A DNA stretch of 64,000 nucleotides from Sphingomonas radiodurans (lineage in GTDB: Bacteria > Pseudomonadota > Alphaproteobacteria > Sphingomonadales > Sphingomonadaceae): contig NZ_CP086594.1 of assembly GCF_020866845.1 (NCBI RefSeq), positions 1,984,001-2,048,000 of the forward strand. The letters are read 5' to 3'. The notes beneath the pieces were generated by a model. That model was not told where the DNA came from. It saw only the letters and a list, made by a program, of their open reading frames with translations, and did not search any database. Both the position numbers and the translations under genes were made by a program. The first letter of the stretch is position 1. Every line of letters begins with the position of its first letter. Below, piece by piece: positions 9,729 through 55,315 of this stretch.

Positions 9729-9730
9729 AT

Positions 9731-10330: not shown

Positions 10331-10465
10331 GGGCGCTTCCTTTCAGGCCAGGCGCGGCATTGCTACGATCGCCGGAGCAGACCTAGGCCGATGCTCGATC
10401 GCCCGCAAGAATGGGGTGGCTCGCAGCTACGAGCGGAATGGGCGTAGGGCCTCGGGAGACCAAGA

Positions 10466-11128: not shown

Positions 11129-11161
11129 TCGCCCGATCCCCGAGAGTCCGGCATCTAGCCG

Positions 11162-35813: not shown

Positions 35814-35825
35814 GGGATCAGTCCT

Positions 35826-36386
35826 TCAGGCGAGCGGGGCGAGCGGATTGCCGTCATAGGCAAACGGGCTGTCGAGATCCGCGAGTGCGGGCTGCACCTT
35901 GTCCTTGTCGCTGAGTTCGGGCGTGGCGCCGGCGGGGATCGGCCAGTCGATGCCAGCGCTGTCCCAGCGGATGCCGCCGTCAGCCTCGGGCGCATAGGTG
36001 TCCGAGCATTTGTACGTCACTTCACAATCGGGTTCGAGCGTGACGAAGCCGTGCGCGAAGCCGATCGGGATGAACAGCTGGTGGCCGTTCTCCGCGGAAA
36101 GCTCGGCGCCGACCCATTGGCCATAGGTCGGCGAGCCGCGCCGCACGTCAACCGCAATGTCCCAGATCCGCCCGCGAATGCACCGGACGAGCTTGTCCTG
36201 CCCCCGCGGCGACGCCTGAAAATGCAGCCCGCGAAGCGTAAAGGCGGGGGTGGAAAGCGAGTGATTGTCCTGCACGAAGCGGCACGTGATCCCGAGCTTC
36301 GCGAACGCGGGCTCGGAATAGACCTCCGTGAACCAGCCACGGGCGTCGCCAAAGCGGCGGGGGCGGATGAGTTGGACGGGAGACAT
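35826..36386 (-). CDS. rfbC: dTDP-4-dehydrorhamnose 3,5-epimerase RmlC
   Basis: A 186-residue cupin-fold epimerase. RGLHFQ carries the catalytic His, and FVQDNHSLS, GQDKLVRCIRG and PIGFAHGFVTLE are typical. It is the first gene of rfbCBDA and is divergent from the sugar transferase at 36657. Order and length are normal. Rhamnose supply fits the DUF1972 glycosyltransferase later in the locus. Confidence 0.95.
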   Translation of the reverse strand: MSPVQLIRPRRFGDARGWFTEVYSEPAFAKLGITCRFVQDNHSLSTPAFTLRGLHFQASPRGQDKLVRCIRGRIWDIAVDVRRGSPTYGQWVGAELSAENGHQLFIPIGFAHGFVTLEPDCEVTYKCSDTYAPEADGGIRWDSAGIDWPIPAGATPELSDKDKVQPALADLDSPFAYDGNPLAPLA

Positions 36387-38046: not shown

Positions 38047-39114
38047 ATGACGACGAGTAAGACGGCACTAATCACGGGTATTACTGGACAAGACGGTGCC
38101 TATCTCGCCGAACTGCTGCTGGCGAAAGGTTATGAGGTTCATGGGCTGAAGCGGCGCTCATCATCGTTCAACACTGGGCGGATCGAACATATCTACCAAG
38201 ACCCGCACGAGCAGAACGCGCGCTTTCACCTGCATTTTGGCGACCTGACGGATTCGACCAACCTCATTCGCCTGGTGCAGCAGATCAAGCCCGATGAGAT
38301 TTACAACCTTGCTGCCCAGAGCCATGTCGCGGTGAGCTTTGAGACGCCTGAATATACCGCCAATGCTGATGGAATTGGCACGCTTCGACTGCTAGAGGCG
38401 ATCCGTATCCTTGGCATGGAGAAGACATGTCGTTTCTACCAGGCGTCGACTTCGGAGCTATACGGCTTGGTTCAGGAAGTGCCGCAGCGCGAGACAACCC
38501 CCTTTTATCCGCGTTCGCCTTATGCCGCGGCGAAGCTGTACGCATATTGGATTACCGTCAATTACCGCGAAGCGTACGGCATGCATGCCAGCAACGGCAT
38601 TCTGTTCAACCATGAGAGTCCGCTGCGTGGCGAAACCTTCGTTACGCGCAAGATTACGCGCGCGGCGGCGGCGATTTCGCTCGGCCGCCAGGAAATGTTG
38701 TATTTGGGCAATTTAGACGCCCAGCGTGACTGGGGCCATGCCCGCGAATATGTCGAAGGCATGTGGCGCATCGTCCAGGCCGACATCGCAGACGACTTCG
38801 TGCTGGCAACTGGTGAGACGACGCGGGTTCGCACGTTTGTCGAATGGGCGTTTGAGGACGCCGGCATCAACCTGCGCTGGGATGGCGAAGGCGTTGACGA
38901 GAGAGGCTATTGCCAGGAGACTGGCCGATTACTGGTGGCGATCGACCCGCGCTATTTCCGTCCGACCGAAGTTGAGCTGCTAATCGGCGACCCAAGCAAA
39001 GCACGTGAAAAACTGGGCTGGACGCATCAAACCAGCCCGCGCAATCTGGCCCGCGAAATGGTACAAGCAGATCTGAAAATCATGCGCGATGCGCCAATCG
39101 GGAAGGGCGCCTGA
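38047..39114 (+). CDS. gmd: GDP-mannose 4,6-dehydratase
   Basis: A 355-residue SDR enzyme. [15 protein letters not shown] is the NADP-binding loop, [18 protein letters not shown] is a Gmd signature, and [11 protein letters not shown] with [14 protein letters not shown] carry the catalytic Thr/Ser, Glu, Tyr and Lys. It makes GDP-4-keto-6-deoxy-D-mannose, the common precursor of GDP-L-fucose, GDP-colitose and GDP-perosamine. AGAGGAAAG precedes the ATG. No manB or manC lies in the window, so GDP-mannose must be supplied from elsewhere. Confidence 0.95.
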
Positions 39115-39165: not shown

Positions 39166-40128
39166 ATGAACGGCAGCAACGGGGTCGTAGGCACGGGCCG
39201 GCGACGAGTGTGGATTACTGGTGGTAACGGCATGGTTGGGCGCAACCTGCGCGAACATCCGCGTGCAGCGGAATGGGATATCCTTGCCCCGTCACGTCGC
39301 GATCTCGATCTTGCCGATCGCCGGGCGGTCGGTAACTTCGCGCGCGACGTGCGGGTTGACCTGGTGATCCATGCCGCGGGGCAGGTAGGAGGTATCCAGG
39401 CGAACATGGCCGATCCGGTCGGCTTCCTTGTCAATAATCTCGACATAGGTCGCAACGTTATCATGGGTGCTTTCGAGGCCGGTATTCCTGCACTCATTAA
39501 CCTGGCTAGTTCGTGTATGTATCCGCGCGGTCGCAACCATGCGCTGCGCGAAAGCGACATAATGTCCGGCGAGCTAGAACCGACCAACGAGGGCTATGCT
39601 CTGGCTAAGATCGTCTCGACCCGGCTGTGCGACTATATCGCGCGCACCCAGCCCGATGCAGCCTATCGTACTATAATTCCGTGTAATTTATACGGGTGGC
39701 ACGACAAGTTCGATCCGAAGGCCTCCCATTTGGTCCCCGCGATCATCGCGAAGGTCAGCGCGGCGGTTGCCGAGGGGCAGGGCGAGGTCGAAATCTGGGG
39801 CGACGGTACTGCGCGACGCGAGTTTATGTATGCCGCCGATGCAGCTGACGCGATCTGGCGCGGTGCAGAACATCCCGCCGCGCTGCCGCAGTTGATGAAT
39901 ATCGGCATCGGCGACGATCACACCATTCTCGAGTATTACGAAGCGGTTGCCCGAACGCTTGGGTGGAAAGGCAATTTTCGTTTCGATTTGACCCGCCCCG
40001 TGGGCATGCAGCGCAAGTTGAGCGACGTTTCCCTGCAACGCGCCTGGGGCTGGACATCGCCCACGTCGCTGCAGGACGGCATCACCGCCACCATTCAATT
40101 CTATCAGCAGCAGGCACAAGCATCATGA
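39166..40128 (+). CDS. GDP-4-keto-6-deoxymannose epimerase/reductase (Fcl/ColC-like)
   Basis: A 320-residue SDR enzyme. ITGGNGMVGRNL binds NADPH, NLASSCMYPR carries the Ser and the Cys proposed as an epimerase acid/base, EGYALAKI holds Tyr-x-x-x-Lys, and NLYGWHDKF keeps the second epimerase residue His. In Fcl this gives GDP-L-fucose; in the related ColC it gives GDP-L-colitose from the 3-deoxy intermediate. The overlap of its stop with the ColD-like gene (ATGA) favours ColC, but fucose synthesis is not excluded. Confidence 0.88.
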   Translation: MNGSNGVVGTGRRRVWITGGNGMVGRNLREHPRAAEWDILAPSRRDLDLADRRAVGNFARDVRVDLVIHAAGQVGGIQANMADPVGFLVNNLDIGRNVIMGAFEAGIPALINLASSCMYPRGRNHALRESDIMSGELEPTNEGYALAKIVSTRLCDYIARTQPDAAYRTIIPCNLYGWHDKFDPKASHLVPAIIAKVSAAVAEGQGEVEIWGDGTARREFMYAADAADAIWRGAEHPAALPQLMNIGIGDDHTILEYYEAVARTLGWKGNFRFDLTRPVGMQRKLSDVSLQRAWGWTSPTSLQDGITATIQFYQQQAQAS

Positions 40129-41300
40129 ACAAGCGGTTCCCACTCGCCACGACCTCATGGGACGAGGCAGAATATCAGGCGATGCAGGACGTCATTGCCT
40201 CTGGCCAGTTCTCAATGGGGCCGAAGGTAAAGGCCTTTGAGGAAGCCTTTGCCGCCTACACCGGCACGCGCTATGCGGTGATGTGCAATTCGGGATCGTC
40301 GGCCAACCTGCTGATGATCGCAGCGCTGCGCTTTACTAAGAACTCGGCGCTGCGTCTTGACAAAGGCGACGAGGTGCTGGTGCCCGCGGTGTCGTGGAGC
40401 ACGACGTACAGCCCGCTCGAACAATATGGCCTGCACGTTCGCTTCGTAGATATCGACTTGGCGACGCTAAATTTTGATCTGGTTGCGCTGGAAGCTGCTA
40501 TTACACCGCGAACGCGGGCGATTTTCTGCGTCAACCTGCTGGGGAATCCCAACGACTTCGCCGCGATCCGCGTGCTGGCCGACAAGCACAGCCTAATTGT
40601 GCTTGAAGATAATTGCGAATCGATGGGTGCCGAATTCGCGGGTCGTAAGACCGGCTCGTTCGGGGCGATGGGCAGCCAGAGCTGCTTCTTCTCGCACCAT
40701 ATCTCGACAATGGAAGGTGGACTTGTCACCACCGATGTCGAAGAACTCTATCACCTGATGCTGTCGCTGCGTGCGCATGGCTGGACCCGGCAGTTGCCAA
40801 TCGATAATCAGGTGGTCGGACGAAAGGGTGGCGATGCGTTCGAGGAATCGTTCCGTTTTGTACTGCCGGGTTACAATCTGCGCCCGCTGGAACTGTCGGG
40901 TGCGATTGGCATTCATCAGATCGCTAAGTTGCCGCGCCTGATCGAGGAACGCCGGCGTAACGGCGCACTCTTGCAACAGCATCTGTCTAATCATCCCGAC
41001 CTGATCATCCAGCAGGAAATCGGCAAGAGCAGCTGGTTTGGCTTCAGTCTGGTCATCCGTCCTGGAAGCGCAATGACGCGGGCAACGCTGATGCAGCAGC
41101 TTGAAGCGCTAGGGTTCGAATATCGCCCGATCGTCAGCGGGAACTTTGCTCGCAAAGAAGTAGTGCGTTATTTTGACCATAGCATATGCGGCAATCTGTC
41201 CAACGCCGACCACATCGACGGCAATGGCCTTTTCATTGGCAATCACCATTACCCGATCGACGAAGCGATCGAGGCGCTAAAAACAATCGCGGCAAACTAA
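40125..41300 (+). CDS. colD: ColD-like GDP-4-keto-6-deoxymannose 3-dehydratase
   Basis: A 391-residue PLP-dependent protein of the DegT/DnrJ/EryC1 fold. CNSGSSANLLMIAAL binds the cofactor phosphate and LEDNCESMGAEF the pyridine ring. Where sugar aminotransferases carry the Schiff-base lysine, this protein has His (SHHISTMEGG, residues 190-199, His191 by simple alignment). That replacement is the hallmark of ColD, which removes the C3 hydroxyl of GDP-4-keto-6-deoxymannose. An ordinary aminotransferase (perosamine synthase) role is therefore unlikely. The ATG at 40125 overlaps the stop of the Fcl/ColC-like gene; the frame open to 39963 is inside that gene. Confidence 0.85.
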   Translation: MNKRFPLATTSWDEAEYQAMQDVIASGQFSMGPKVKAFEEAFAAYTGTRYAVMCNSGSSANLLMIAALRFTKNSALRLDKGDEVLVPAVSWSTTYSPLEQYGLHVRFVDIDLATLNFDLVALEAAITPRTRAIFCVNLLGNPNDFAAIRVLADKHSLIVLEDNCESMGAEFAGRKTGSFGAMGSQSCFFSHHISTMEGGLVTTDVEELYHLMLSLRAHGWTRQLPIDNQVVGRKGGDAFEESFRFVLPGYNLRPLELSGAIGIHQIAKLPRLIEERRRNGALLQQHLSNHPDLIIQQEIGKSSWFGFSLVIRPGSAMTRATLMQQLEALGFEYRPIVSGNFARKEVVRYFDHSICGNLSNADHIDGNGLFIGNHHYPIDEAIEALKTIAAN

Positions 41301-41707: not shown

Positions 41708-42068
41708 ATCGTGCTGTCGATCATGTCGTTGCTGCCGTCGCGCTCGATCACCGCGGCCAGCGCCTACAGCTTGGCCCGACCACGCCCGTCATTTTCCAGC
41801 GCCAGCAGCGGTGGAACGCTGTTCCACTTGCCACACTCGTCCGGCAAACGTTGCCACTGCGCACCCGTCCGGGCGATGCACATCATGCCTTCGAATATCG
41901 ACGGTTGTCCCGCGCAGGGCGGCAGCCCCGGCCTCGCTCTGCTGGCAACAGCGCGCGCATGAGCTCCCATTTTGCGTCTGACAACCCGATCCTCTCACCC
42001 AACACTGCCTCCAAGTAGCAGCCTTGAATCAACCGCAGATCACCTCGGCAACCTATGCCCACGTAACC
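41708..42068 (-). mobile_element. IS5-type remnant (5' half)
   Basis: The sequence is homologous to the right-hand half of the IS element at 61362-62209: the same CTTGAATCAACCGCAG near the end, a related terminal repeat and a shared transposase segment (FEGMMCIARTGAQW; DECGKWNSV). The transposase 3' half is missing and the element is fused to the beta-helix remnant. It keeps the Trp codon TGG that is a stop in the other copy. The terminal TA at 42069-42070 abuts the neighbouring oxygenase stop. Confidence 0.7.
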
Positions 42069-42865
42069 TAGCGTTGTGCACGACGAGCGGTTCGGCTGCC
42101 GAGCAGCTTCTGTTTGGTGATCACGAGTGGATTAAGGACCGTTGCAAGGGCGCGTTTGAGGCGGCTTTGGGGTATCCACGTCGTGCTTGCGTATTCCACA
42201 TCCCTGGTGCCGTCGTCGATTGTATAGGCATAAGCCGCAATCGATGTTCGGAAGCGGTCGCTCGGAAAACGGATCGGCTTATAGCCATGCAGCGTGTGGC
42301 GCTTGGTCAGCATGATCACGGCACGGTTTTCGACCGGAGAGATCGACGCCTTTTCGCCCGTTTCCGCATGCTGCAAATCTAGGCACCCGCCCCAGGATTC
42401 CTCGTAATCCTTGTTGAGGTAAAGCAGGATGTTCAATTCGCGAATCCATTCTTTTTTCAGTGGATGTCGCGTGAAATCCGCATGCATTTCAAGGAACGAC
42501 CCTTTCCCTCCTTGATGAAGTCCGCCGCCCGTGAAGCTGGGGTCTACGAACAGATCCATGCTGACAATACGCGATAGAGCCAAGCGGAAACGGTCAGAAA
42601 GAAGTTCTTCGCGAATAACGCGAGTAGATCCACTTATATGCTCAATTCTTGGGTTCTCTATCTTATTTTTTGCAAAAAGAAAATCAGAAGAACTCTCTTT
42701 TGTGGAAGCCGTTTTGAAAAAACCCTCCTTGCGAATTGTGTTTAGTCCATCTCTGGTCAGAAAACCATCTATAACAAGGTGTTCAAAAGGCGATGCATCA
42801 CGATACTGTAACCGCAGTCTCTCAATATTGTCTTCAATATAATTGAAATCGATAAAGCTATTCAT
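42068..42865 (-). CDS. 2-oxoglutarate/Fe(II) oxygenase superfamily protein
   Basis: A 265-residue protein with the double-stranded beta-helix oxygenase motifs: MHADFTRHP (His-x-Asp iron ligands, about residue 127), TLHGYKPIRFP (distal His) and FRTSIAAYAY (2-oxoglutarate Arg). RELNILLYLNKDYEESWGG is shared by prolyl-4-hydroxylase-like enzymes in polysaccharide clusters. The substrate is unknown; hydroxylation of a surface glycan or protein is possible. The 5' third is AT-rich. The stop codon TAG is built at the junction with the IS remnant, so the native C-terminus may have been longer. Confidence 0.8.
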   Translation of the reverse strand: MNSFIDFNYIEDNIERLRLQYRDASPFEHLVIDGFLTRDGLNTIRKEGFFKTASTKESSSDFLFAKNKIENPRIEHISGSTRVIREELLSDRFRLALSRIVSMDLFVDPSFTGGGLHQGGKGSFLEMHADFTRHPLKKEWIRELNILLYLNKDYEESWGGCLDLQHAETGEKASISPVENRAVIMLTKRHTLHGYKPIRFPSDRFRTSIAAYAYTIDDGTRDVEYASTTWIPQSRLKRALATVLNPLVITKQKLLGSRTARRAQR

Positions 42866-42954
42866 TTGCTACCCATTTCCGTTTCGCCAACAGCGTTGCT
42901 GTCTGCGATTTAGTATGCTGATAATGGTTGCTTTAGTGATTTGCAACTGATCCG

Positions 42955-43019
42955 CGTGGTCACAGGGCAATCAGAGCAATGTTGAGGCGAGAGACGAAGC
43001 CGATGTAGGACTTGACCTG
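42955..43019 (-). mobile_element. Fragment of an IS5-family transposase end
   Basis: About 65 bases on the minus strand encode VKSYIGFVSRLNIALIAL and a stop (42960-42962). This resembles the C-terminus of IS5-family transposases (compare ESYLGFVTLASAKLW at 61359-61967). The rest of the element is gone and the IS3-type element begins at about 43020. Confidence 0.5.
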
Positions 43020-43098
43020 TGACGTCCCCCCTGTCTTTTCATCCGGATTGAGTGAGAGTTTTCTGGCCCTTTGAAGCCTACGGGTGAGGAGCTGGGAC

Positions 43099-43357
43099 AT
43101 GAAGAAGTCGAGGTATACGGAAGAGCAGATCGCGTTTGCGCTGAAGCAGGCGGAGACGGGAACGCCGGTAGCCGAGGGCATCCGCGGGATGGGCGTGTCG
43201 GAGCAGACGTTCTACCGCTGGAAGAAGGTGTATGGCGGGCTCGGCGTGGGCGAGCTGCGACGGGTAAAGCAGCTCGAGGACGAGAACCGCAAGCTGAAGC
43301 AGCTCGTCGCCGACCTGAGCCTGGACAAGCACATCCTGCAGGACGTTCTGTCAAAAA
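43099..43357 (+). pseudogene. IS3-family OrfA, cut off
   Basis: ATG 43099 with GAGGAG upstream begins a protein typical of IS3 OrfA: an HTH (KSRYTEEQIAFALKQAETG; MGVSEQTFYRWKKVYGG) and a leucine-zipper-like coiled coil (RVKQLEDENRKLKQLVADLS). It is interrupted at LQDVLSK, exactly where an A-rich frameshift site links OrfA to OrfB in this family. Confidence 0.85.
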
Positions 43358-44172
43358 TAGTATGGTCCGCCCCCGTCTGGCAAGCGTGAGATGTGGTTGG
43401 CGGCACAGTCTGCGTAAATGTATCCGGCCTGTGTGTGGGACATCTCGATCCGTGGCCATGATGGGATACGCGTCACGATCGGCATTTCAAGCTGGTCCAG
43501 CCTTTGACGGGTGCGTTTTTGGCCAGGCTTCGATCGTGTCACCATCGACTGTTTGCCATCACTCCTCTCGCTGCAGACCTCTTCGTGCGGGTGCCCGGCT
43601 CAGGCGGCGATCGGCACGGATGGCCGATACTCTTCCTGCCGGGCCAGCACCGCCCAACTGATGCGTACTATTTTGTTCGCCAGCGCTACGACGGCGACGT
43701 TCTTGGGGTTCGCGTCTCGAGCTGATCGAGTCAGGAGCCGAGGCCGCGATCACGCTTCATGTGCATGCTCGCTGATCTGGCGCCGTGAATGAAAAGCCGG
43801 CGCAATGAGCCGTTGCCACGCTTCGACATGCCGAGCAGCGTCTGCTTGCCGCCGGTGGAGTGGTGGCGTGGAACAAGGCCGAGCCACGCGGCGAGATCGC
43901 GACCGCGCTTGAAGCCGGTGCCATCGTCAACTGCGGCGACCAGCGCCGTGGCGACCAGCGGCCCAACGCCGGGGATGGCGAGCAGGCGTCGGCAGCCGGC
44001 GTCAGCGGCCGCGATCGTCTCGATCTCCTTGATCACCGCAGCGATGTCGGTGTAAAGACGTCTACTAATATCGATGCCGACTACCGCTGCCTCTGTCATG
44101 ACGGTCCTCCTTTAGTGAAGGCAGTCAGGATGCTCCTGATCGCGCCGCTCCGTAAGGGGCGGACCATCCCAC
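43358..44172 (-). mobile_element. IS110-type element with internal deletion
   Basis: An insertion of about 815 bp inside the IS3 element. Near its ends lie perfect 12-bp inverted repeats ATGGTCCGCCCC (43362-43373) and GGGGCGGACCAT (44156-44167), a few bases in from the junctions, resembling the subterminal repeats of the IS1111 group of IS110. Removing it rejoins the IS3 reading through TCAAAAA and AAGCTCTG. The transposase inside is internally deleted and broken. Confidence 0.65.
43600..44099 (-). pseudogene. IS110-family transposase, degenerate
   Basis: AAAGGAGG before ATG 44099 and the N-terminus MTEAAVVGIDIS (first Asp of the DEDD domain) are normal. The protein then jumps at about residue 13 into the C-terminal transposase_20 domain (IPGVGPLVATALVAAVDDG; RDLAAWLGLVPRHHSTGGK), so most of the DEDD catalytic domain (roughly 150-200 residues) is deleted. 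A TGA at 43731-43733 replaces an expected Trp codon. A frameshift follows before NPKNVAVVALANKIVR and the true stop at 43600. Confidence 0.75.
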
Positions 44173-45015
44173 AAGCTCTGACGCCTGGGCGACGGCGCAA
44201 GATCGTCGCGCACGTCCAGGCGTGCCATGGCGTCAGCGAACGCCGCAGTTGCCTGGCGCTGGGCATCGACCGATCGTCGGTGCGCTACATATCACATCGG
44301 CCGGATCAGGCGCCGCTTATGCTGCGCATCCGTGATCTGGCGGCGACGCGGACGCGGTACGGTTACTTCAGGATCTACATCCTGCTGCGCAGGGAAGGTT
44401 GGCTGGTGAACCACAAACGCGTCTATCGGCTTTACCGGGATGATGGACTGAGCCTTCGGCTTAAGAAGCCCGGACGCAACGTCAGCGCCGCTAACCGCGA
44501 CCGGCAGCCAGCGACCGCACCGGCAAACGAGATGTGGTCGATGGACTTCGTCTCCGACGCGCTGTTCGATGGCCAGCGGCTGCGGGCGCTGACGGTGGTC
44601 GACGCGTTCACGCGCGAGGCGCTGGCGATCAGTCGACCAGGGCATCAAGGGTGAGCAGGTGGTCGAAGCAATGACGCGGATCACGCTGTCACGCGCGGCG
44701 CCCCGGACCATCCGGGTGGACAATGGGCCGGAGTTCATCTCAAAGGCATTCGTCGACCGCTGGGCCTGCGACAACGGCGTCACACTGGACTTCAGCCGTC
44801 CGGGAAAGCCGACGGACAATGCCTTCGTGGGGTCGTTCAACGGCCGCCTGCGGGACGAGTGCCTGAACACGCACTGGTTCCTTTCGCTGGAGGACGACCG
44901 AGTCAAGGTCGAGGCTTGGCGGAGGGATTACAACGAGAGCCGTCCTGACACATCACTTGGCTGGATGACGCCGGTCGAATATGCTGCTGCCGCGGCCAAG
45001 ATCGCGGCCGAATGA
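44173..45015 (+). pseudogene. IS3-family OrfB (integrase core), frameshifted
   Basis: The catalytic rve domain is read in two frames. The first gives ALTPGRRRKIVAHVQACHG, the HTH_21 region and MWSMDFVSDALFDGQ with the first catalytic Asp. After a one-base loss at about 44630-44637, the second gives IRVDNGPEFISKAF (second Asp), TLDFSRPGKPTDNAFVGSFN (catalytic Glu region) and the end at 45015. Separation from OrfA plus this frameshift make it inactive. Confidence 0.82.
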
Positions 45016-45129: not shown

Positions 45130-46296
45130 CTATTTGGAGCGCACCGGACGGGTGACAGCTTGGGCAGCCTGCACAACCCAGCGATCAAGCGTCTCAACTG
45201 GCGTGTAATCTTCGATTCTGGTTGCTGACTGGTCCACGTAGACACCGGTCAGTGTGCCTTCGGAAGCGGCATCAAAGATCACCGCGCGGTCAGGCTGAGG
45301 AGCGACCAACCGGATTGCGCGGAGCGAAAGCCCTTGCCCGATAACGCGCACGCCGATCAGGCATTTGCGGCGATCAACGCCTATCAGGTTGAGGCATTCT
45401 GCGATCTGCACCTGATTGAGCTGGATCGCGATGTCGGAAGGTGGCTTTTCTGCGGTGATCGTTTCAATCGCGAGATTCCTGATAGATCCCCCAGGCGACG
45501 AGAAATAGCAGCATCCGTCCGCGGTCAGATTAGTGAAATTGGAGTAGTTGGAATGGATCCAATAGGCATAGGCGCCTGATCGCACATGGGTAACTTCAAG
45601 ATCGCGAAAGCTGTTGTAGGTGACATCCTCGAACCCGGCATCGCAATAGAAACCGTAGCGGGTCACATGGCCGGTCACCGAGATGTTTTCGAAACATGAG
45701 CGATACACGACGCCCGCCAGCGAGACGCCCGTGCCGGTGCTGACAATATGGATGTCGCGCAAGGTCGTCTGGTGGATCGCAGCGCCATTGCCCGCCGTCG
45801 ACAGGCGGATGCCGTCGCACGGATCGTCCGGTACCGCGGCAAGCAGTCGGATGCCGGAAAGCGCGAACCCCATGATCGAATCTGTCGTTTTTGCCTCAAC
45901 GTGGATGACCGGCCGGCCCTTGCCCGATGCCGCCAGAATAACGCTGCGCTCGATCCCGTCGCCTTCGATCCGGATGCCGCGATTGATCGTTAGCGTGCGG
46001 GTGATCCGATAGCGGCCCGCCGGGATGCGCAGCCTGCGACCCTGCTCGGAGGCGGTGCGGATCGCGCGTTCGAAGGCCGCGGTATCGTCGGCATTGCCGT
46101 TACCGCGTGCACCGAACTGGGTAACCAGTATATCGCCGGATTCCGCCGATGGCGCGGCAGGGCCGTCCAGCGCCTGAGCCGCACCCGGTGCGGCTACGCC
46201 CGTAGCCAGGATCTTGATGGCGTTGCGGCGGGATGTTTGGTTCAACAAGGGTTTTTCCCATTTCCAGATAAGCGAGCTGGTATGACGCACGGGCAC
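45130..46296 (-). CDS. Right-handed beta-helix (pectate-lyase-like) exported protein
   Basis: A 388-residue protein with a Tat-type signal (TSRRNAIKILATGVAAPGAAQA). VTQFGARGNGNADDTAAFERAI is the start of the pectate_lyase_3/GH28-related fold, followed by parallel beta-helix rungs (IRIEGDGIERSVILAASG; TTLRDIHIVSTGTGVSL). Proteins of this type in polysaccharide loci are often lyases or hydrolases for the polymer; catalytic residues are not clear here. GTG 46296 is the longest start, but TTG 46248 just before the Tat motif is possible. A decayed paralogue lies at 41375-41702. Confidence 0.75.
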   Translation of the reverse strand: MPVRHTSSLIWKWEKPLLNQTSRRNAIKILATGVAAPGAAQALDGPAAPSAESGDILVTQFGARGNGNADDTAAFERAIRTASEQGRRLRIPAGRYRITRTLTINRGIRIEGDGIERSVILAASGKGRPVIHVEAKTTDSIMGFALSGIRLLAAVPDDPCDGIRLSTAGNGAAIHQTTLRDIHIVSTGTGVSLAGVVYRSCFENISVTGHVTRYGFYCDAGFEDVTYNSFRDLEVTHVRSGAYAYWIHSNYSNFTNLTADGCCYFSSPGGSIRNLAIETITAEKPPSDIAIQLNQVQIAECLNLIGVDRRKCLIGVRVIGQGLSLRAIRLVAPQPDRAVIFDAASEGTLTGVYVDQSATRIEDYTPVETLDRWVVQAAQAVTRPVRSK

Positions 46297-46531: not shown

Positions 46532-47275
46532 GTGAATCACGTCGTGGTGCGCACGCACGGCGGCTTGGGCAATCAGATATTCCAGCTTCTCTATGCCCGG
46601 CTTTACGCCGATCGGATCGGCGCGCCGCTCTATGATGTGCACGACCTCCGTTACGCGCACGGCTTCACCCGCAGCGTCGAGATCGGCCGCGCGCCGGCCC
46701 CGTCGCGCTTGCGGCAGGCGGTATCGTCTGTGCGTCTGCCTAAGCTTCTCACGCGCGCGGGGCTGCGCCGAGATCGTGTCTCGCTCTTTGGCACCACCTA
46801 TCTCGACGGTTATTTTCAGCGGCCCGACAATTATGCCGATTTTGGCAACGCGGCGCTGCGCCGGGAATTGCAGCGGCTGCGTGAGGAGCTGCGCGTGTCA
46901 AGCCATCCGACGCGGGCGCTCGGCATGCACCTGCGGCTTGGCGATTTCTTCAGCTCCGATGCTGCCGTCACCGCCCATCTGAACGAGCGGCTGGGGCGCC
47001 TTGGCCCCGATATCGGGATCGTGACCAACGAAGAGGAACGGCTGCGCACGCCTCTGGTCGCGGAGGTCCTGGCGGCCAAGCGCGCCTGGATCGTGCCAAC
47101 GGGCGACATGACGCCGGAGGACGTGCTGCGTACCCTCGCCTCGTTCCGGCGCATGGACGGCAATGACAGTACGCTGTTGTTCTGGGCGTCGGCTCTTTCA
47201 GGTATGGAGTGCAATTACAAGAACCCCGAACTGCGGGCCCTGCGCGAGCGGTTCCTTCAAGTGCTAATGGGCTGA
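46532..47275 (+). CDS. GT11-family alpha-1,2-fucosyltransferase-like glycosyltransferase
   Basis: A 247-residue protein starting at GTG 46532 (GGGAG eight bases before). RTHGGLGNQIFQLLYARLYA is the N-terminal hallmark of family GT11, and GMHLRLGDFF corresponds to the donor-binding HxRRGD motif with a Leu in place of the second Arg. The C-terminal part (VTNEEERLR; LLFWASALSG) fits the family. It would transfer fucose, or a related GDP-deoxyhexose such as colitose, to the growing repeat. The frame is open to 46391, but that leader has no family match. It is shorter than typical GT11 members (about 290). Confidence 0.82.
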   Translation: MNHVVVRTHGGLGNQIFQLLYARLYADRIGAPLYDVHDLRYAHGFTRSVEIGRAPAPSRLRQAVSSVRLPKLLTRAGLRRDRVSLFGTTYLDGYFQRPDNYADFGNAALRRELQRLREELRVSSHPTRALGMHLRLGDFFSSDAAVTAHLNERLGRLGPDIGIVTNEEERLRTPLVAEVLAAKRAWIVPTGDMTPEDVLRTLASFRRMDGNDSTLLFWASALSGMECNYKNPELRALRERFLQVLMG

Positions 47276-47286
47276 GAGCATTCTTA

Positions 47287-48306
47287 ATGTCTGACGCCCG
47301 GCCTCACGTGAACATTCTCCATTCTTATGGTCACGCCCTGTTCGGATCCCATTTTGATCCTGTGCGGGATGGGTTCGATGTCGTGGAAAATGACACCCGC
47401 GACCGCTTATGGGATCTGGTCATCGTCTTTGAAGCGATCACGGCCCCGCAACGATTGCGCGTGCGTGGTGGCCGGGTCGTCTTCATATCCGGCGAGCCGC
47501 CCGAAATCGGAAATCATGGCAAGGCGTTCCTGCGGCAGGTCGATGCGGTGTTTTGCGCAGGCGCCTGCCCGAGGTTGGGGCCGGGGCAGCAAGTGTCGGG
47601 CGAGCAGCATTTTAACAATTGGCATTTCGGGTACAGCCGGGACACCGGTTATCGCCACGGCCACGAGTTTATCCGCGATCTGCTGCCCCCGGCCAAGACA
47701 CAGATGCTATCGACGGTGACTTCGAACCTGAATTACCTGCCGATGCACATCAAGCGTCGCGCGCTGGTTGACCGCCTGGCGCGCGATTATGCGGGCAGAT
47801 TGGATATATTCGGCCGGCCGCATCGCTACGTTGAATACAAGGAAGATGCCATTCTTCCTTACCGCTTCCATCTGTGTGTCGAGAATTGCGCGGTGCCCGA
47901 TCTGTGGACCGAAAAGATCGCGGACGCGCTGCTGGGCTATGCCGTGCCGGTTTATGCGGGATGCCCGAATATCGATCGCTATTTTCCCGGCGCGACGATC
48001 GCGATCGATCTCGACGATTATGCCAGCACGCGCCGGACGATCGATGCCATTCTTTCGGACGGCGAAGCGATCTATCGCGAACGCCTGGCGGCGGTGATTG
48101 AGGCTCGCAAGCAATTGATCGAGCGATATGACATTTCGGCGCTGGTCGGTACGATGCTGCAGGCGCCGGCCGGGACCATGGTTCGCGACATCGTCTTGCG
48201 GCCCGAGGCATCATTCTCGATGGCGGGCCTTCGCGATCTTGCGGCGCGTACGCGTCGCAAGGCGATGACGCTGCTGTGGCGGCGAAGGATCGCCCGGCAT
48301 GGCTGA
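47287..48306 (+). CDS. GT10-family alpha-1,3-fucosyltransferase-like glycosyltransferase
   Basis: A 339-residue protein. The GT10 signature is visible as YRFHLCVENCAVPDLWTEK followed by ALLGYAVPVYAGCPNIDRYFP (about residues 200-240), covering the GDP-fucose-binding Glu and Lys. The N-terminal half has the poorly conserved acceptor domain (VVFISGEPPEIG). It would add an alpha-1,3-linked fucose or similar GDP-sugar. It starts 11 bp after the GT11 gene and ends overlapping the GT2 gene. A GT11 plus GT10 pair is the classic set for doubly fucosylated (Lewis-like) structures. Confidence 0.88.
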   Translation: MSDARPHVNILHSYGHALFGSHFDPVRDGFDVVENDTRDRLWDLVIVFEAITAPQRLRVRGGRVVFISGEPPEIGNHGKAFLRQVDAVFCAGACPRLGPGQQVSGEQHFNNWHFGYSRDTGYRHGHEFIRDLLPPAKTQMLSTVTSNLNYLPMHIKRRALVDRLARDYAGRLDIFGRPHRYVEYKEDAILPYRFHLCVENCAVPDLWTEKIADALLGYAVPVYAGCPNIDRYFPGATIAIDLDDYASTRRTIDAILSDGEAIYRERLAAVIEARKQLIERYDISALVGTMLQAPAGTMVRDIVLRPEASFSMAGLRDLAARTRRKAMTLLWRRRIARHG

Positions 48307-49279
48307 TCTGGAGTCCTGCATGGCTGCCCCGATCCTGTCGCTCATCGTCCCGGTCTATGGGGTTGAGGATTATGTAGGCGCTTGCCTGGATAGTATCCTG
48401 AAAGCGCCCGGGTTCGCCAACCAATGCGAGCTGATCGTCATTGACGACGGTTCAAAGGACGGCAGCATGGACATTGTCGAGCAGCGCTGCCGCGGGATCG
48501 CCAATGTCACGATCGTCCGGCAGGCGAATGCGGGATTGGGCGCTGCCCGCAATACCGGCATCGCCCATGCGCAAGGGCGCTATCTGTGGTTTGTCGACAG
48601 CGACGACGAGATCTGTGGCGATGCCATCGTCCAGCTGACGGATTGCATCGTGCGCCACGGCCCTGATGTGATCGCCTTCGAATTCGAGACGATTGGTGGC
48701 TCGCTTGATCGCTCCCCATATCTTCCCATTTATGACCAGATCGTTGATCCGGTGCGATTCATGGCCTCCGGCCGTCCGCCCAGTCCCGTTCAATTCTACG
48801 CCTTTGCCCGCGCGCTGATCGCGCGGACCGGACACGCGTTCGCGCCGGGTATCTATCACGAAGATGCGTTGTTCACGCCGCTCGCGCTGGTACAGGCCGG
48901 CTCGCTCGTTCGCCTGAGTACCGCATGTTATCGCTATCGGCTGCGTGAGGGGTCGATCATGTCGCTCAGCCGTCCCGAAAAGCATCTGGCTGACATGCTG
49001 TCCATTTCGGAGGTTCTCGGCGCCCACGCCAATCGGGCGCCGACCGGCAGTGCACAGCAACAGGCGCTCGCCCGGGAGGTAGGTTTTGCGCTCGCCGCTG
49101 CGCGGCACTATGCCGCGCGGACCAGCCGGCGCGATCGTTGCCAGGCGGCGTCCTTCTCCCGGATGCTATCCGCCGGCGCGCGATGGTGGCACTATTTTCC
49201 TCTCCGCGTACTGATCAACTATGCCCGTCTGCTTGGTCTGGCGGCTCTCCCGACTTCCCTCGGAAGTGGCCGGAAATGA
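48299..49279 (+). CDS. GT2-family glycosyltransferase
   Basis: A 326-residue GT-A fold protein. LSLIVPVYGVEDYVGACLDSI and CELIVIDDGSKDGS form the nucleotide-binding part and LWFVDSDDEICGD the metal-binding DxD region. The C-terminus has a helix but no clear membrane span. ATG 48299 overlaps the GT10 stop; ATG 48320 is an alternative. Donor and linkage are unknown. Its stop overlaps the polymerase start (ATGA). Confidence 0.9.
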   Translation: MADLESCMAAPILSLIVPVYGVEDYVGACLDSILKAPGFANQCELIVIDDGSKDGSMDIVEQRCRGIANVTIVRQANAGLGAARNTGIAHAQGRYLWFVDSDDEICGDAIVQLTDCIVRHGPDVIAFEFETIGGSLDRSPYLPIYDQIVDPVRFMASGRPPSPVQFYAFARALIARTGHAFAPGIYHEDALFTPLALVQAGSLVRLSTACYRYRLREGSIMSLSRPEKHLADMLSISEVLGAHANRAPTGSAQQQALAREVGFALAAARHYAARTSRRDRCQAASFSRMLSAGARWWHYFPLRVLINYARLLGLAALPTSLGSGRK

Positions 49280-50400
49280 CACTGGCATTTATTGTTTATC
49301 TGGGGCTGATGCTGGCGCTGACAACCGTGTGGGCCATGCCGACGCGCAAAATGGCGCTTGGTGTGGCGGAAACCGGACATGCCGCAACACAGGCAGCATG
49401 GATCTCGGTTACCTTGTTCACACTGGTGATTGGCGGTCGGTATAATGTGGGTGGAGACTATTTTGGGTACATCGATTATTATCGGTGGACTTCGCTAGAT
49501 ACGGGGATCAACGAAGTTGTATTTGAACCTGGATTTTTGTTGCTGATCCAGTTTTTGAAGCTTTTCGGATTGCCCGATCGCTCCATTATCGTGGCAAGCA
49601 GCTTCATACAGATTGCTTTGTTTTCGCTGTGGCTGCGAAAGCATCCGCAAATCGCGCCTTTTGCGGTGTTTTCCTTTATCGCGTTAGTTTTGCTGGATGT
49701 GAACAACATCGTCAGGCAGGGGATTGCCTTTTTCGCTATTCTGCTGGCGATTTCAGCTATCGCGGAGCGGCGCTGGTTGGCGTTCTTCGCGTGGGGGCTG
49801 TTTGCCTACCTGTTTCACCGCAGCGCCCTGATCATTTTTCCGATCGGCATTGCCCTGCGCTGGCTGCCGCTGCCGAAGGTTCAATTGCAGATCGCGGCGC
49901 TGCTGTTTTCATACGTATTTATCGGCTTGTTCTTTAACCAGATTGTTGGCCTGTTTACGCTGATGACGTCACTAATCGGATATGACAGCTATTCCGACAT
50001 CAGCCGGGCCGACCTGGCTTTTTCACAGCAAGGTTCGTCATTAAATCTAGGCATCTATCTGTGGCCCATCGTGGACTTTGTTATCATATGTTATTCGAAC
50101 AAAGTTGCAAGGCACTATGAGGTTATGAACTATCGGCTGTATCATACATTTTATCTGGTAGCAGCCCTTCTGCAACCTGTGGCAAACGCTTGGGATTTTC
50201 TTCCTTTTGCGCGCGGGCTGTTCTATTTCGTGGCGATGCGATCGATATGTGTTGGCTTCGTTTTGCATTTCTGCCTGATGGTATCGCGCAAGCCGCGCGA
50301 TATCGTGGCCGGGTCAGGCATCGGTGCGGTCTTCCTGCTCTGGCTTATCATCGCGGTTTCGCGAGGAGCGGCGTGGAGCGCTCCTTATCAGTTTTCCTGA
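49276..50400 (+). CDS. EpsG-like polysaccharide polymerase (Wzy)
   Basis: A 374-residue inner-membrane protein with about ten helices. RYNVGGDYFGYIDYYRW in the first large loop is the EpsG-family mark, and LFHRSALIIFPIG fits the same family. Its role would be polymerisation of lipid-linked repeat units in the periplasm. Coding is somewhat more AT-rich than its neighbours, common for Wzy genes. It sits between GT2 and GT4 genes within the Wzx/Wzy locus. Confidence 0.82.
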   Translation: MTLAFIVYLGLMLALTTVWAMPTRKMALGVAETGHAATQAAWISVTLFTLVIGGRYNVGGDYFGYIDYYRWTSLDTGINEVVFEPGFLLLIQFLKLFGLPDRSIIVASSFIQIALFSLWLRKHPQIAPFAVFSFIALVLLDVNNIVRQGIAFFAILLAISAIAERRWLAFFAWGLFAYLFHRSALIIFPIGIALRWLPLPKVQLQIAALLFSYVFIGLFFNQIVGLFTLMTSLIGYDSYSDISRADLAFSQQGSSLNLGIYLWPIVDFVIICYSNKVARHYEVMNYRLYHTFYLVAALLQPVANAWDFLPFARGLFYFVAMRSICVGFVLHFCLMVSRKPRDIVAGSGIGAVFLLWLIIAVSRGAAWSAPYQFS

Positions 50401-50407: not shown

Positions 50408-51694
50408 ATGTCCGAACGCCTGCGTGTCCTGGTGCTCGCTTATATGGTTTCGCCTGTCCGCGGCTCGGAATTTGCCGTCGCGTGGAATTATGTCGAAACC
50501 ATGCGAGCGCATTGTGACCTGACCGTTCTGTACGGCTCTGCCGGCCCGCACATGGGCGATGTTACCGACTTCCCGACCCCCAGTTTCGTTGACCGGCATG
50601 TGCCCGGGGACGTGACGTTTCATTTCGTGCCCGAGCCGCCATTGGCGCGGCGCCTGAATGCGCTCAACCGGCGCGGCATCCTGACGTACAGCTTCTATCT
50701 TGCCTATCGGATCTGGCACCGCGCAGCCCTCGCCGAGGCGAAGCGCCTGATCACGCAGGGCGAGTACGACGTCATCCATTACGTAGGCCCGATCGGCTAT
50801 CGCGAACCAGGCTATCTTTGGACCTTGCCGCTTCCCTATGTGTGGGGCCCGATCGGGGGCGCGACCAGCTTCCCCTGGCGGCTGCGCAGCGCATTGCCCG
50901 GCAGGGGGCAGCTTCGGCTGATTGCCCGCACGCTGGGCAATGCATTTCAGCTTCGCTTCAGCGGCCGAGTGACCAAGGCGTTGCGCCGCGCCGACGTTCT
51001 GTTCACCGCCACCACGGAGAACCAGGCAATCTTCGAGCGCCTGAAGAATGTGCCGTCGCGCTACCTCCCGGAGAACGGGATCGAGGGGACGATTACCCTC
51101 GACGACAGCAAATTCCCCGCCCGGCCGATCCGGATCCTGTGGATTGGCTCGCTTGAAGCGCGCAAGGGGCTGATCCTGCTGATCGAGGCGATCGGGATGT
51201 TGCGCGATCCGCAGCAGATCCGTGTCGATGTGCTGGGCAACGGGCCGCTGCGCGACAGCCTGATCGCGCGCGCCGCGGCGCTGGGGGTGGGGGAGCAATT
51301 CCATTGGCACGGCCATGTCCCGCGCAGCGAGGTGCTCGACCTGCTCGATCGCAGCCACCTGCACGTGATCACCGGCCTCAACGAAGCGAACACGACCTCG
51401 ATTTGGGAAGCGCTTGGCCACGGCGTGCCGGTGCTGACGCTGGATCATTGCGGCATGCATGACGTGGTCGCGCCTGCTTATGGTATCCGCATTCCCGTCA
51501 CCGACATGCAAGGGTGCAGCCGCGATATCGCCGCCGCGCTCGAGGCGCTGGTCGCGGCGCCCGAGCGGCTCGAGGCAATGGCGCGCGCCTGCGCTGCCGA
51601 GTGCGACCGCTTCCGCATCGTCCATCGATCCTGCACGTTCCTTGATGCTTACAAGGCCGCGATCGCGCGGCACCGTGCGAGGATCGCTGGTTGA
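50408..51694 (+). CDS. GT4-family glycosyltransferase
   Basis: A 428-residue GT-B fold protein starting at ATG 50408, eight bases after the polymerase stop. The C-terminal nucleotide-sugar domain has RILWIGSLEARKGLILLIEAI, VDVLGNGPLRDSL and TSIWEALGHGVPVLTLD (the E-x7-E region). The N-terminal part (AYMVSPVRGSEFAVAWNY) matches the same group. Donor unknown. The stop overlaps the TTG start of the flippase. Confidence 0.9.
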   Translation: MSERLRVLVLAYMVSPVRGSEFAVAWNYVETMRAHCDLTVLYGSAGPHMGDVTDFPTPSFVDRHVPGDVTFHFVPEPPLARRLNALNRRGILTYSFYLAYRIWHRAALAEAKRLITQGEYDVIHYVGPIGYREPGYLWTLPLPYVWGPIGGATSFPWRLRSALPGRGQLRLIARTLGNAFQLRFSGRVTKALRRADVLFTATTENQAIFERLKNVPSRYLPENGIEGTITLDDSKFPARPIRILWIGSLEARKGLILLIEAIGMLRDPQQIRVDVLGNGPLRDSLIARAAALGVGEQFHWHGHVPRSEVLDLLDRSHLHVITGLNEANTTSIWEALGHGVPVLTLDHCGMHDVVAPAYGIRIPVTDMQGCSRDIAAALEALVAAPERLEAMARACAAECDRFRIVHRSCTFLDAYKAAIARHRARIAG

Positions 51695-53196
51695 GGCTGC
51701 AGTGGAATTTTGTCGGCCTCTTGGGCGCCCGTGGTGCCAAGCTGACGTTGGGGCTGGCGATGATGTTCGTCTACGCCCGCATCTTTGGCGCCAGCGCGAC
51801 CTATGACGCCTGGATCTGGGCATTGGGCATCGTGAATGCGGCCGGAATGCTGCTGTTTGGGCCGATCACCGAGACGATCCGCGCCAGCTATGCCAGCATC
51901 GACAGCCGCGAGGGGCGAGCGGCGGCCGAGCAATATATCGCCACCATCGCCGTGATCATGATCGGCGGGGCGATCCTGGTCGCCGGGGCCGCGGCGTTGA
52001 CTTTGCCGCTCTTGGCGGCGGGCTTGGCGCCGCAGCAATCGGGGCAAGAGCCGGCCGCGACCTTCTTTCTCTATGCGCTGGCGCCCTCCTTGGCCCTGTC
52101 ACAGGTGGTAGCGGTCTTGACCGCTCACCTAAATTGCCACAGCCGGATCTATGCGCCGGAGATCGCGGGCACGGTTGGCGGCTGCATCGGCCTTGGCTTC
52201 ATTGTCGCCTTTCCGCAGCTTCCGGCCACCTGGCTGTTGCCGGGCAGCTATTATATTGCGCTGTTCATGCCGCTGCTGGTGGGGGCATCGTTCTGGCCAC
52301 AGCTCGTGCGCGTGCTGTGGCACCTTGAAGGATCGGCGTTCCGCCGTCATGCCCGCGAGGCGCTCGGCTTCTCGATGCCGCTCCTGCTGCCCTATGCGCT
52401 TGGCCAGGCGGGCGGGGTGGTGGAGCGCCAATATGCGCTGCTGGCGGGGACCGGCGCCCTGTCGATCCTGAGCTATGCCTTTTTTGCGCGCAACACCGTG
52501 CAGGCGGTCTTCACGGCTGCGCTTTCGGCGCTGGCGGTGCCCGCGCTGGCGCGCGCGTGGGATGCGGAGGATACCGGGCCGTTCCGTGCGACGCTGGCCC
52601 ATTGGGCGCACCAGTGCCTGATGCTGGTGACGATCGGCATGGTGACGCTGTTCGGCCTGTCGGACACGATACCGCCGCTGCTGTTCGGCGATAACATCAC
52701 GGCTGGGCAGCAATCGCTGCTGAGCGAGCTGCTGCGCTTCTATGCCGTTGCGATTGTCACCGTCGTTCTATATCTCATGGGGGGATCTGCCCTTCTGGCA
52801 GCCCGACGTGGTAAAACTTATGCAGCGCTGGGCACGCTCGCGAGCCTAATCGCCCTGGCGCTGCTGCTGATATTGTTTCCGGTGATCGGCATCATCGCAA
52901 TTCCAATCGGCTTGGCGATCAGCCACGCACTGGCAGCGGGCCTGATGTTTCGCGCAATCGACCCGGCTGATGGTTGGCAAATCCTGCGCGATGCCGGTCT
53001 CCGGATCCTGGTGATTGTCGCGGCAGGATCTGCGCTTCGCGGTGCTGACACAGTGCTTTCTGCCGAATTCGGTCTTCTGGAACGCTTGGTGGCCGGCAGT
53101 GGGCTTGCGATGCTTCTGGGTGGGTTGTGGTGGCTGGCCGAGCATTGGCTGGGCCGCGACACAATGCGCTCCACGCCGACGAATCAGGTCTTTTGA
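51691..53196 (+). CDS. Lipid-linked oligosaccharide flippase (Wzx/MurJ-like)
   Basis: A 501-residue membrane protein of the MOP exporter superfamily with about 13-14 helices. ALGFSMPLLLPYALGQAGGVVERQY and ILSYAFFARNTVQAVFTAALSALA recall MurJ/MviN-type proteins. In this setting it should flip undecaprenyl-linked repeats to the periplasm. It starts at TTG 51691 within the GT4 stop. A cell-wall lipid II flippase role is less likely given the locus. Confidence 0.83.
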   Translation: MRLQWNFVGLLGARGAKLTLGLAMMFVYARIFGASATYDAWIWALGIVNAAGMLLFGPITETIRASYASIDSREGRAAAEQYIATIAVIMIGGAILVAGAAALTLPLLAAGLAPQQSGQEPAATFFLYALAPSLALSQVVAVLTAHLNCHSRIYAPEIAGTVGGCIGLGFIVAFPQLPATWLLPGSYYIALFMPLLVGASFWPQLVRVLWHLEGSAFRRHAREALGFSMPLLLPYALGQAGGVVERQYALLAGTGALSILSYAFFARNTVQAVFTAALSALAVPALARAWDAEDTGPFRATLAHWAHQCLMLVTIGMVTLFGLSDTIPPLLFGDNITAGQQSLLSELLRFYAVAIVTVVLYLMGGSALLAARRGKTYAALGTLASLIALALLLILFPVIGIIAIPIGLAISHALAAGLMFRAIDPADGWQILRDAGLRILVIVAAGSALRGADTVLSAEFGLLERLVAGSGLAMLLGGLWWLAEHWLGRDTMRSTPTNQVF

Positions 53197-54239
53197 TGAA
53201 AATGCTGCTACTCAATACCTTTGATGCTTATGCCGGATCACAGCGTATCGGCCGGGACATGGTCCGGCTGCTTGCTGCGGCTGGCCATGACGTTCAGGTC
53301 AGGTTGGGATTTGGCGGCGGGGGGTTCCTCAGAGACTTGTCGGAAACGAGGACCGACGTGGGGATCAGCAATGTGGCGATCCGCAAATTGCTTTATCCGT
53401 TATGGGCCTTGCTGGTCAGCCTGCCGGTTGCGATCGCCGCGCTGCGCGGGCGGATCATCTGGGCCAATGCGGTCTATGCAACGCTGCCGGCGCTGCTGGC
53501 AGCGTTGCTTTGCCCACACCGGGTGGCCGTGCATCTGCACGAGGCAACGTTCCCCAAGCTGTTCATGATGATCCTGCGGCTGATGGTGTGGCGCGGCGTG
53601 CTCATTATCTGCGTTTCATCGGATCACGCCGCCCGCATCGGCTTGCCGGCGACGGTCTTGTACAATCCTGTGTCGTTGTCCCATCGCGATGCACCTTCGG
53701 CGTGCGATCGCCTGCTGTTCGTCGGGACGACGCAGCCGATTAAGGGCTTCGCGCTGTTCGTGGCAGTGTGCGACAAGCTGGAGGCTCTGCCGCTTCGCAA
53801 GACGGCCTATCTGTCAGACGAAGCGCGGCATGATCGAACCCTGGTGGCGCGCGCACGGCAAGCGGGCATCGACGTTGTCTTTGGGGAATCCCGTCCAGAG
53901 GTGCTGTACCGGGATGGTTTCCTGCTTCTACAGACCACGGACTCGGCGCTTTGGACTGAGACATTCTCGCTTGTTGCAGTTGAAGCGATGGCGCGGCTGG
54001 TCCCCGTCGCAGGCACTGGCACCACCGTGCTTCCCGAGGTCCTGGGCGAGGCGCTGGCCTTTAATGCGCCGTCGCGCGATCCGAGGGAGATCGCGGATGC
54101 CATCCGCTCGCTCCACGCCAACCCTGCCCAGCACGCCGCGCTGCGCTCTGCCTGCGCTTCCCATCGGGGGGTCTTTTCGGAATGCGCCTTTCTGAACAGG
54201 CTTGAGAATATTGTTCTTATGGGTGGGCGCCAATCATGA
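53196..54239 (+). CDS. GT4-family glycosyltransferase
   Basis: A 347-residue GT-B protein starting at ATG 53196 in a TGATG overlap with the flippase stop. The N-terminal half has a hydrophobic stretch (ALLVSLPVAIAALRG) that may lie on the membrane. The C-terminal half has RLLFVGTTQPIKGFALFVAV and TETFSLVAVEAMARLVPVAG with the conserved Glu residues. It overlaps the next gene by four bases. Donor unknown. Confidence 0.85.
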   Translation: MKMLLLNTFDAYAGSQRIGRDMVRLLAAAGHDVQVRLGFGGGGFLRDLSETRTDVGISNVAIRKLLYPLWALLVSLPVAIAALRGRIIWANAVYATLPALLAALLCPHRVAVHLHEATFPKLFMMILRLMVWRGVLIICVSSDHAARIGLPATVLYNPVSLSHRDAPSACDRLLFVGTTQPIKGFALFVAVCDKLEALPLRKTAYLSDEARHDRTLVARARQAGIDVVFGESRPEVLYRDGFLLLQTTDSALWTETFSLVAVEAMARLVPVAGTGTTVLPEVLGEALAFNAPSRDPREIADAIRSLHANPAQHAALRSACASHRGVFSECAFLNRLENIVLMGGRQS

Positions 54240-55315
54240 CATCGGCAAAGGCCATCCCCCTCGTCGGCACGGTGGGCGTTCCTGCCCGTTACGGCGGGTT
54301 CGAGACACTGGCCGAGCAGTTGTGCCGCCACGTCCCCGCCACGGATGTGCAGTTCATCATCTATTGCGAGCGCAGCGCCTATGACAAGGACGAGCGCAGC
54401 CCCGATTTCTACAGACATCGGCGCATTTTTCTGCCGCTGCGCGCCAATGGCCTGGCGAGCATGCTCTATGATGCATTGGCGTTGATCGATGCCGTGTTCA
54501 GGCGGAAGGCCGAGCAGGTTTTCATCTTCGGCTATTCCGGTGCCTGGATCCTGCCGGTCCTGAAGCTCGCAAGGCCGCGGGTTCGGTACATGGTGAACGT
54601 TGATGGCATGGAGTGGCGTCGCGACAAATTTTCAATCGCCGCGCGGCAGCTGCTGAAGGCGCTGGAATGGTGTGCGGCGCGCTCGGCATCGGTTGTCATC
54701 GCCGACAATGATGCCCTCGCCGATCTTTTCCGTGAGCGATATGGCAGGGAGCCGGTCGTGATCGCTTATGGCGGCGACCACACCGTGTTGCCTGCTCCGC
54801 GGGCTGTATCGGAAACAACGCTGAAGGGGCATTATCTGGCGGTCGCCAGGATCGAGCCCGAGAACAACACCGAGGCAATCATTCAGGGGTGCATCGCTGC
54901 CAATGTGCCGCTGGTCTTCATCGGCAATTGGAAGGCCAATTCTTATGGCATGGCGTTGCGCGAGCGGTACGGCGATTCTGGCGGGATCACGCTTCTTGAT
55001 CCCATTTATGACCAGACGGATCTGGCGCCGTGGCGGGCGGGTGCGATCGGCTACATTCATGGCCATAGCGTTGGCGGGACCAACCCCTCGCTGGTGGAGG
55101 CGCTGTTCCATACCGGGCGGATGGTCAGCTTCGATTGCACATTCAATCGGGCGACGCTGTCGGGCGCGGGCAGCTATTTCACCGACGCCGATAGTCTTGC
55201 CGCGCTCCTGCGCGATGGCCTGACGCCGATCGAGAATAGCGAACTGGAAAAACTGCGGGGGACCTATCGCTGGGATGCGATTGCCGCGCGCTATCTGGGA
55301 TTGCTGAAGCAATGA
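54236..55315 (+). CDS. DUF1972 glycosyltransferase, probable rhamnosyltransferase
   Basis: A 359-residue GT4-like protein. GTVGVPARYGGFETLAEQL is the DUF1972 signature seen in WchF/Cps2T-type beta-1,4-rhamnosyltransferases, and HGHSVGGTNPSLVEAL is the donor-binding part. With rmlCBDA in the same locus, dTDP-rhamnose is a reasonable donor. It is the last + strand glycosyltransferase, convergent with the small secreted protein. Confidence 0.83.
   Translation: MTSAKAIPLVGTVGVPARYGGFETLAEQLCRHVPATDVQFIIYCERSAYDKDERSPDFYRHRRIFLPLRANGLASMLYDALALIDAVFRRKAEQVFIFGYSGAWILPVLKLARPRVRYMVNVDGMEWRRDKFSIAARQLLKALEWCAARSASVVIADNDALADLFRERYGREPVVIAYGGDHTVLPAPRAVSETTLKGHYLAVARIEPENNTEAIIQGCIAANVPLVFIGNWKANSYGMALRERYGDSGGITLLDPIYDQTDLAPWRAGAIGYIHGHSVGGTNPSLVEALFHTGRMVSFDCTFNRATLSGAGSYFTDADSLAALLRDGLTPIENSELEKLRGTYRWDAIAARYLGLLKQ

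Follow-up and report, generated by a model that had tools for sequence, protein, structure and literature searches.

Two adjoining genes in the window, i.e. the whole 64,000-nucleotide stretch of Sphingomonas radiodurans DNA analysed here, probably encode late-acting glycosyltransferases of a Wzx/Wzy-type locus that add L-colitose from GDP-L-colitose to the repeat unit. The product is most likely a Wzx/Wzy-type, rhamnose-containing exopolysaccharide with one or two colitose side residues, which on the best reading of the sequences would be added by a GT10-family enzyme and probably also by a relative of family GT11. The genome seems capable of making colitose, not fucose, and the pair therefore probably attaches colitose. 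In the proposed route, Gmd, ColC and ColD would provide GDP-L-colitose as the sole detected GDP-deoxyhexose branch, with ColC forming hardly any GDP-fucose, or none, inside the cell. It would then be the GT10 enzyme and the GT11 relative that use GDP-colitose, and not the GT2 or GT4 enzymes; two colitose residues may be added per repeat. The genes of the locus are given below; the closest cluster elsewhere is L007, a contig of the Sphingomonas sp. 67-36 MAG (genome G923).

33005 to 36386, minus strand: rmlA, rmlD, rmlB and rmlC, dTDP-rhamnose supply (TIGR01207, TIGR01214, TIGR01181 and TIGR01221, all above cut-off).
36657 to 37904, plus strand: initiating polyprenyl-phosphate hexose-1-phosphate transferase of the WcaJ/EPS type (TIGR03025, 298.6 bits; cut-off 295.55).
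38047 to 39114, plus strand: gmd, GDP-mannose 4,6-dehydratase (TIGR01472, 607 bits; cut-off 415); single match in the genome at E 1e-20.
39166 to 40128, plus strand: GDP-colitose synthase of the colC type (epimerase/reductase); the genome has no other strong Fcl/ColC-like match.
40134 to 41300, plus strand: colD, GDP-4-keto-6-deoxymannose 3-dehydratase (480 bits to the E. coli ColD/WbdK structure 2gms); single match in the genome at E 1e-20.
45130 to 46296, minus strand: pectate-lyase-like (right-handed helix) protein (PF12708, E 5.9e-16), found at the same place in L007 (7917 to 9350).
46532 to 47275, plus strand: divergent, compact GT11-like glycosyltransferase of 247 aa with GGLGNQIFQ, HLRLGDF and DSTLLFW, lacking the usual C-terminal part.
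47287 to 48306, plus strand: GT10-family glycosyltransferase (PF00852, E 3.3e-9; PDB GT10 matches; dN/dS 0.15 against L007).
48299 to 49279, plus strand: GT2 glycosyltransferase (PF00535, E 6.3e-28), overlapping the end of the GT10 gene by 8 bases.
49258 to 50400, plus strand: EpsG/Wzy-type polymerase (PF14897, E 1.3e-31).
50408 to 51694, plus strand: GT4-type glycosyltransferase (weak family matches, EpsH/EpsE-like, E about 1e-14).
51691 to 53196, plus strand: Wzx/MurJ-type flippase (TIGR01695, E 1.1e-18, below cut-off).
53190 to 54239, plus strand: GT4-type glycosyltransferase (weak matches, E 7e-8).
54236 to 55315, plus strand: Cps2T-like (rhamnosyl) GT4 glycosyltransferase (NF046071, E 6.5e-46, below cut-off).

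With an export and tyrosine-kinase gene set that also lies in the locus on the minus strand, the gene content looks like that of a complete Wzx/Wzy-type exopolysaccharide cluster. The order in L007 matches that of the window, running from gmd, colC and colD over the pectate-lyase-like gene to GT11, GT10, GT2, EpsG, GT4, Wzx and two further GT4 genes, and G923 has a single strong match for GMD, for ColD and for ColC. Between colD and the pectate-lyase-like gene, the window additionally contains a 2OG-Fe(II) oxygenase-like gene (minus strand) and pieces of an IS3 transposase (42068 to 45015). This segment looks like an insertion, since L007 has neither the oxygenase-like gene nor the IS3 pieces there. 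The pectate-lyase-like protein is itself a candidate for an enzyme acting on the same exopolysaccharide.

The choice of donor sugar could be narrowed. The preliminary description had pointed to a single GDP-deoxyhexose branch that includes ColD, and this holds throughout the closed, one-contig genome of 3,678,193 bases (3.68 Mb), in which GMD and ColD have single matches. ColD is closest to the ColD structures and carries the His that replaces the aminotransferase Lys, FFSHHISTMEGG; the role of this active-site His is described in PMC8987622. The adjoining reductase reaches 280 bits against the Fcl equivalog, whose cut-off is 500. In a tree of 17 proteins (including the long-branched fragment L099 of unsure placement), it groups with its L007 counterpart, the enzyme of genome G694, the ColC proteins of E. 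coli O55 and O111, and L065 from a contig end (98/99 support); the ten Fcl-type proteins, WcaG among them, fall outside this clade. The next-best ColC-like proteins of the genome are 25-26% identical (E 7e-9 or weaker), the first of them at 26% with E 7e-9; Fcl-type proteins from other genomes match at E 1e-53 or better. Thus, the closed genome has no strong match for a separate Fcl besides ColC. A ManC-type mannose-1-phosphate guanylyltransferase is encoded outside the cluster (G000:C1:711445-712479).

These data bear directly on the possibility that the two enzymes are fucosyltransferases, served by a bifunctional ColC that would additionally convert the GMD product to GDP-fucose, so that the polymer would be a mixed one or a fucose polymer. 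GT10 and GT11 are both families of fucosyltransferases, and ColC, an Fcl homologue, reaches 215 bits against an E. coli GDP-fucose synthase structure. Yet the reductase belongs to the ColC clade and scores below the Fcl equivalog cut-off, colD starts 5 bases behind colC in an order kept in both species, and neither genome has a match to PF07959, the family of GDP-fucose salvage, which makes fucose transfer distinctly unlikely. The earlier choice of colitose, fucose or both is hence shifted toward colitose, given that ColC is the one strong Fcl-like match and that a salvage gene was not found. The genome appears to make GDP-colitose without a separate GDP-fucose enzyme, and GDP-colitose is the best candidate donor; GDP-fucose would be possible only if ColC also made it.

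Donors of the GDP-L-fucose type are characteristic of both families, GT10 and GT11. This background, together with the col branch as the only detected route of the genome, argues against a scenario in which the GT2 or a GT4 enzyme transfers colitose and the GT10/GT11 pair handles other sugars. The annotated colitose cluster of E. coli O111 does fit such a scenario, as it contains a GT2, a GT4 and an unnamed glycosyltransferase only, with no GT10 or GT11 gene named, whereas WbgN, the enzyme for α-1,2-linked colitose in the E. coli O55 O-antigen, is a GT11 colitosyltransferase. Transfer of colitose by a GT2 or GT4 enzyme of the window is accordingly very improbable. WbgN is also among the closest known systems, being a GT11 homologue amid gmd, colC-like and colD-like genes. 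Its resemblance to the GT11 relative of the window is limited, with 23% identity over 175 aa, 290 versus 247 aa, and HIRRGDY versus HLRLGDF, and unlike in the window, no GT10 is named in the O55 region stretches examined.

According to PMC11987014, whose authors stress substrate supply, WbgN and human FUT2 (GT11) each use GDP-colitose, GDP-fucose and GDP-L-galactose; the use of GDP-fucose by WbgN is repeated in PMC12723683. Two genomes of one family may help to separate supply from specificity. In the one-contig genome G694, GT11, GT10 and gmd-colC-colD occur at scattered places with no Fcl match other than ColC, while G869 carries an Fcl 63% identical to WcaG and has no ColD match. The GT11 and GT10 enzymes of the two genomes are 56% and 55% identical, respectively. 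If colitose transfer by the pair holds true, these enzymes, about 55% identical and from genomes with ColC/ColD and with Fcl, respectively, would offer a clean test of donor supply versus specificity.

Within the pair itself, both ORFs lie on the plus strand and are separated by 11 bases. The first (247 aa) has a GTG start, and the second (339 aa) has a possible longer GTG start at 47209. The GT10 assignment is clear, with 37.1 bits for the C-terminal domain in PF00852 (cut-off 23.9), and the PDB matches are all solved fucosyltransferases of the GT10 type (E about 1e-5). The other protein has no Pfam match at 1e-3, none in NCBIfam and no PDB match at E<=1. At a loose threshold, PF01531 is the only family returned, at 15.1 bits and thus below the cut-off of 23.9, as is the L007 ortholog with 22.6; WbgN scores 125.9. 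However, a GT11 profile built from 14 sequences (13 of the 15 class-survey PF01531 matches and WbgN, with the window protein left out) gives it 34 bits, or 33 for the longer ORF. With the same profile, 2000 shuffles stayed at or below 3.9 bits, and among the 403 window ORFs the runner-up scored 1.9. An hhalign comparison with the window protein yielded a probability of 98.6 over 206 columns. Because the profile score far exceeds those of the shuffles and other ORFs, and in view of the hhalign result, the protein is, on sequence grounds, a real but remote GT11 relative. Hence, the proposed adjacency stands, as does the GT10 half, while the GT11 half of the preliminary description has to be reduced to a remote relative below the PF01531 cut-off.

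Of the canonical features, the first-half motifs GGLGNQxFQ and HxRxGD are retained. The usual HxRRGD is replaced by HLRLGDF, also in the L007 ortholog, and NSSFSWWGAW is absent together with the C-terminal region: DSTLLFWAS aligns there, and the protein ends soon after. In the GT11 tree, no branch is longer than the one it shares with L007, and it is, as judged from this divergence, too far removed for the α-1,2 linkage to be carried over. The α-1,2 and α-1,3 linkages and the Lewis-like product raised in the preliminary description are conjectural for the pair, as sequence does not reveal them. Two AlphaFold models, built from alignments with 2 and 3 sequences, had mean pLDDT values of 50.7 and 45.9, too low for pocket inspection.

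With the second Arg, the C-terminal part and most of NSSFSWWGAW gone, the GT11 relative might use another donor or acceptor. In this case, GT10 alone would be the colitosyltransferase, and the GT11 relative would have moved to, for example, GDP-mannose or to a different acceptor role. The missed PF01531 cut-off, the replacement of HxRRGD and NSSFSWW by HLRLGDF and DSTLLFW, the reduced length relative to WbgN and the long branch shared with L007 are all consistent with such a shift. Against it stand the retained GGLGNQxFQ and HxRxGD motifs, purifying selection, the persistence of the gene beside GT10 and the col genes in both species, and the occurrence of motifs without the second Arg in ordinary GT11s, so that this alternative receives a minor, albeit real, share of the probability. 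Compared with L007, the GT11 relatives are 60% and the GT10 enzymes 67% identical, and both genes are under purifying selection. The dN/dS of the GT11 gene is 0.24, a rough value, as synonymous changes come close to saturating (dS 1.3); on this basis, the idea of a decayed gene or pseudogene was rejected. For both enzymes of the pair, transfer of colitose remains the favored reading.

HLRLGDF had also been proposed as a sign of a changed donor. This idea did not survive comparison, as the colitosyltransferase WbgN keeps HIRRGDY, while HxRL and HxRI occur in GT11s of Fcl-bearing genomes in which no ColD was found. The survey covered a small sample of 19 GT11s (14 of the 15 class-survey matches, four from GT10-neighbourhood stretches and WbgN); the window GT11 was left out, and L034 was excluded for having no HxRxxD in frame. 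HxRR is present in 14 of the 19 and missing from L026, L029, L030, L031 and L033, and among the 14 class-survey GT11s, five lack the second Arg. The GT11s of G620 and G729 read HVRLGDF, HVRLGDL and HVRIGDF; their Fcl proteins are best matched by WcaG, and no His-type ColD was found. G798, which also has a non-RR GT11, shows no Fcl at E 1e-20, and its DegT protein (28-31% identical) gave no His motif in a pattern search. Conversely, the GT11 of the ColD-bearing G694 reads HVRRGDY, and O55 with WbgN is the other genome combining RR with ColD. On this survey, the notion that the motif tracks the donor was rejected. G683 is a counter-case: its HLRLGDY GT11 lies directly beside a ColD-type enzyme (L053/L044, G683:C1; 46% identical to the window ColD), yet the genome also has two Fcl-like proteins.

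The adjacency of GT10 and GT11 is in itself ordinary, because such pairs recur elsewhere in Alphaproteobacteria. The two genes are neighbors in G1183, G1213, G1239 and on a plasmid of Neorhizobium galegae, and G772 and G832 resemble the window in having both families together. G772 contains one GT11 and three GT10s with gmd and fcl; its cluster encodes an Fcl 54% identical to WcaG and shows no ColD match, whereas the window instead has ColC and ColD. In G832, both parts are joined in a natural fusion of 876 residues, in which the GT10-like part precedes the GT11 domain (L041, G832:C25, ORF 8583-11210, minus strand). In a search of 150 relatives, the GT11 query hit the genome it came from and, over 82 aa with 31% identity (E 2.6e-4), G016; of 397 genomes in the family sample, 3 gave a match to the GT10 query, and of 398 in the phylum sample, 12 matched a GT10 profile. 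Within the stretches examined, a GT11 lies near GT10 in four of these twelve, own genome included, with the L119-L121 stretches stopping near GT10 at a contig end. The plasmid search returned no GT11 match and a single GT10 match, in Neorhizobium galegae.

Chemically, WbgN and the Vibrio cholerae O139 and Aeromonas trota polymers come closest; according to PMC8386440 and PMC3210612, these polymers carry two colitose residues in a Gal/GlcNAc tetrasaccharide. Conceivably, the pair could assemble a doubly colitosylated, Lewis-b/y-shaped exopolysaccharide by means of a colitose-dedicated GT10 and a compact GT11 lineage that adapted to GDP-colitose and dropped the canonical donor motifs, a more far-reaching proposal that we consider unlikely. 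Attachment of colitose by the pair would in itself go modestly, and testably, beyond what known enzymes do. If correct, it would extend colitose, known mainly from enteric and Vibrio O-antigens and capsules, to the exopolysaccharide of a Sphingomonas relative, and the GT10 would become a candidate for colitose transfer. Apart from a review containing both words (PMC3210612), the open-licence literature yielded no report of colitose in Sphingomonas, nor did a GT10 colitosyltransferase turn up in it, both being weak evidence of absence.

ColD-like enzymes also occur in other settings. In L017 (G317:C1:1987000-2006000), two tandem GT10 genes lie next to gmd and to a ColD-like enzyme that carries SHHI; this genome has no ColC/Fcl match at E 1e-20 and possibly makes a different GDP-3,6-dideoxyhexose. 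Furthermore, ColD-type enzymes of about 50% identity are found beside an epimerase-like ORF in the alphaproteobacterial loci L077, L080, L084 and L087, with an Fcl-like ORF nearby in the latter three and, in L077, L080 and L084, a neighbor that by eye resembles a thiamine-dependent dehydrogenase subunit. These four loci may make another, possibly branched, deoxysugar.
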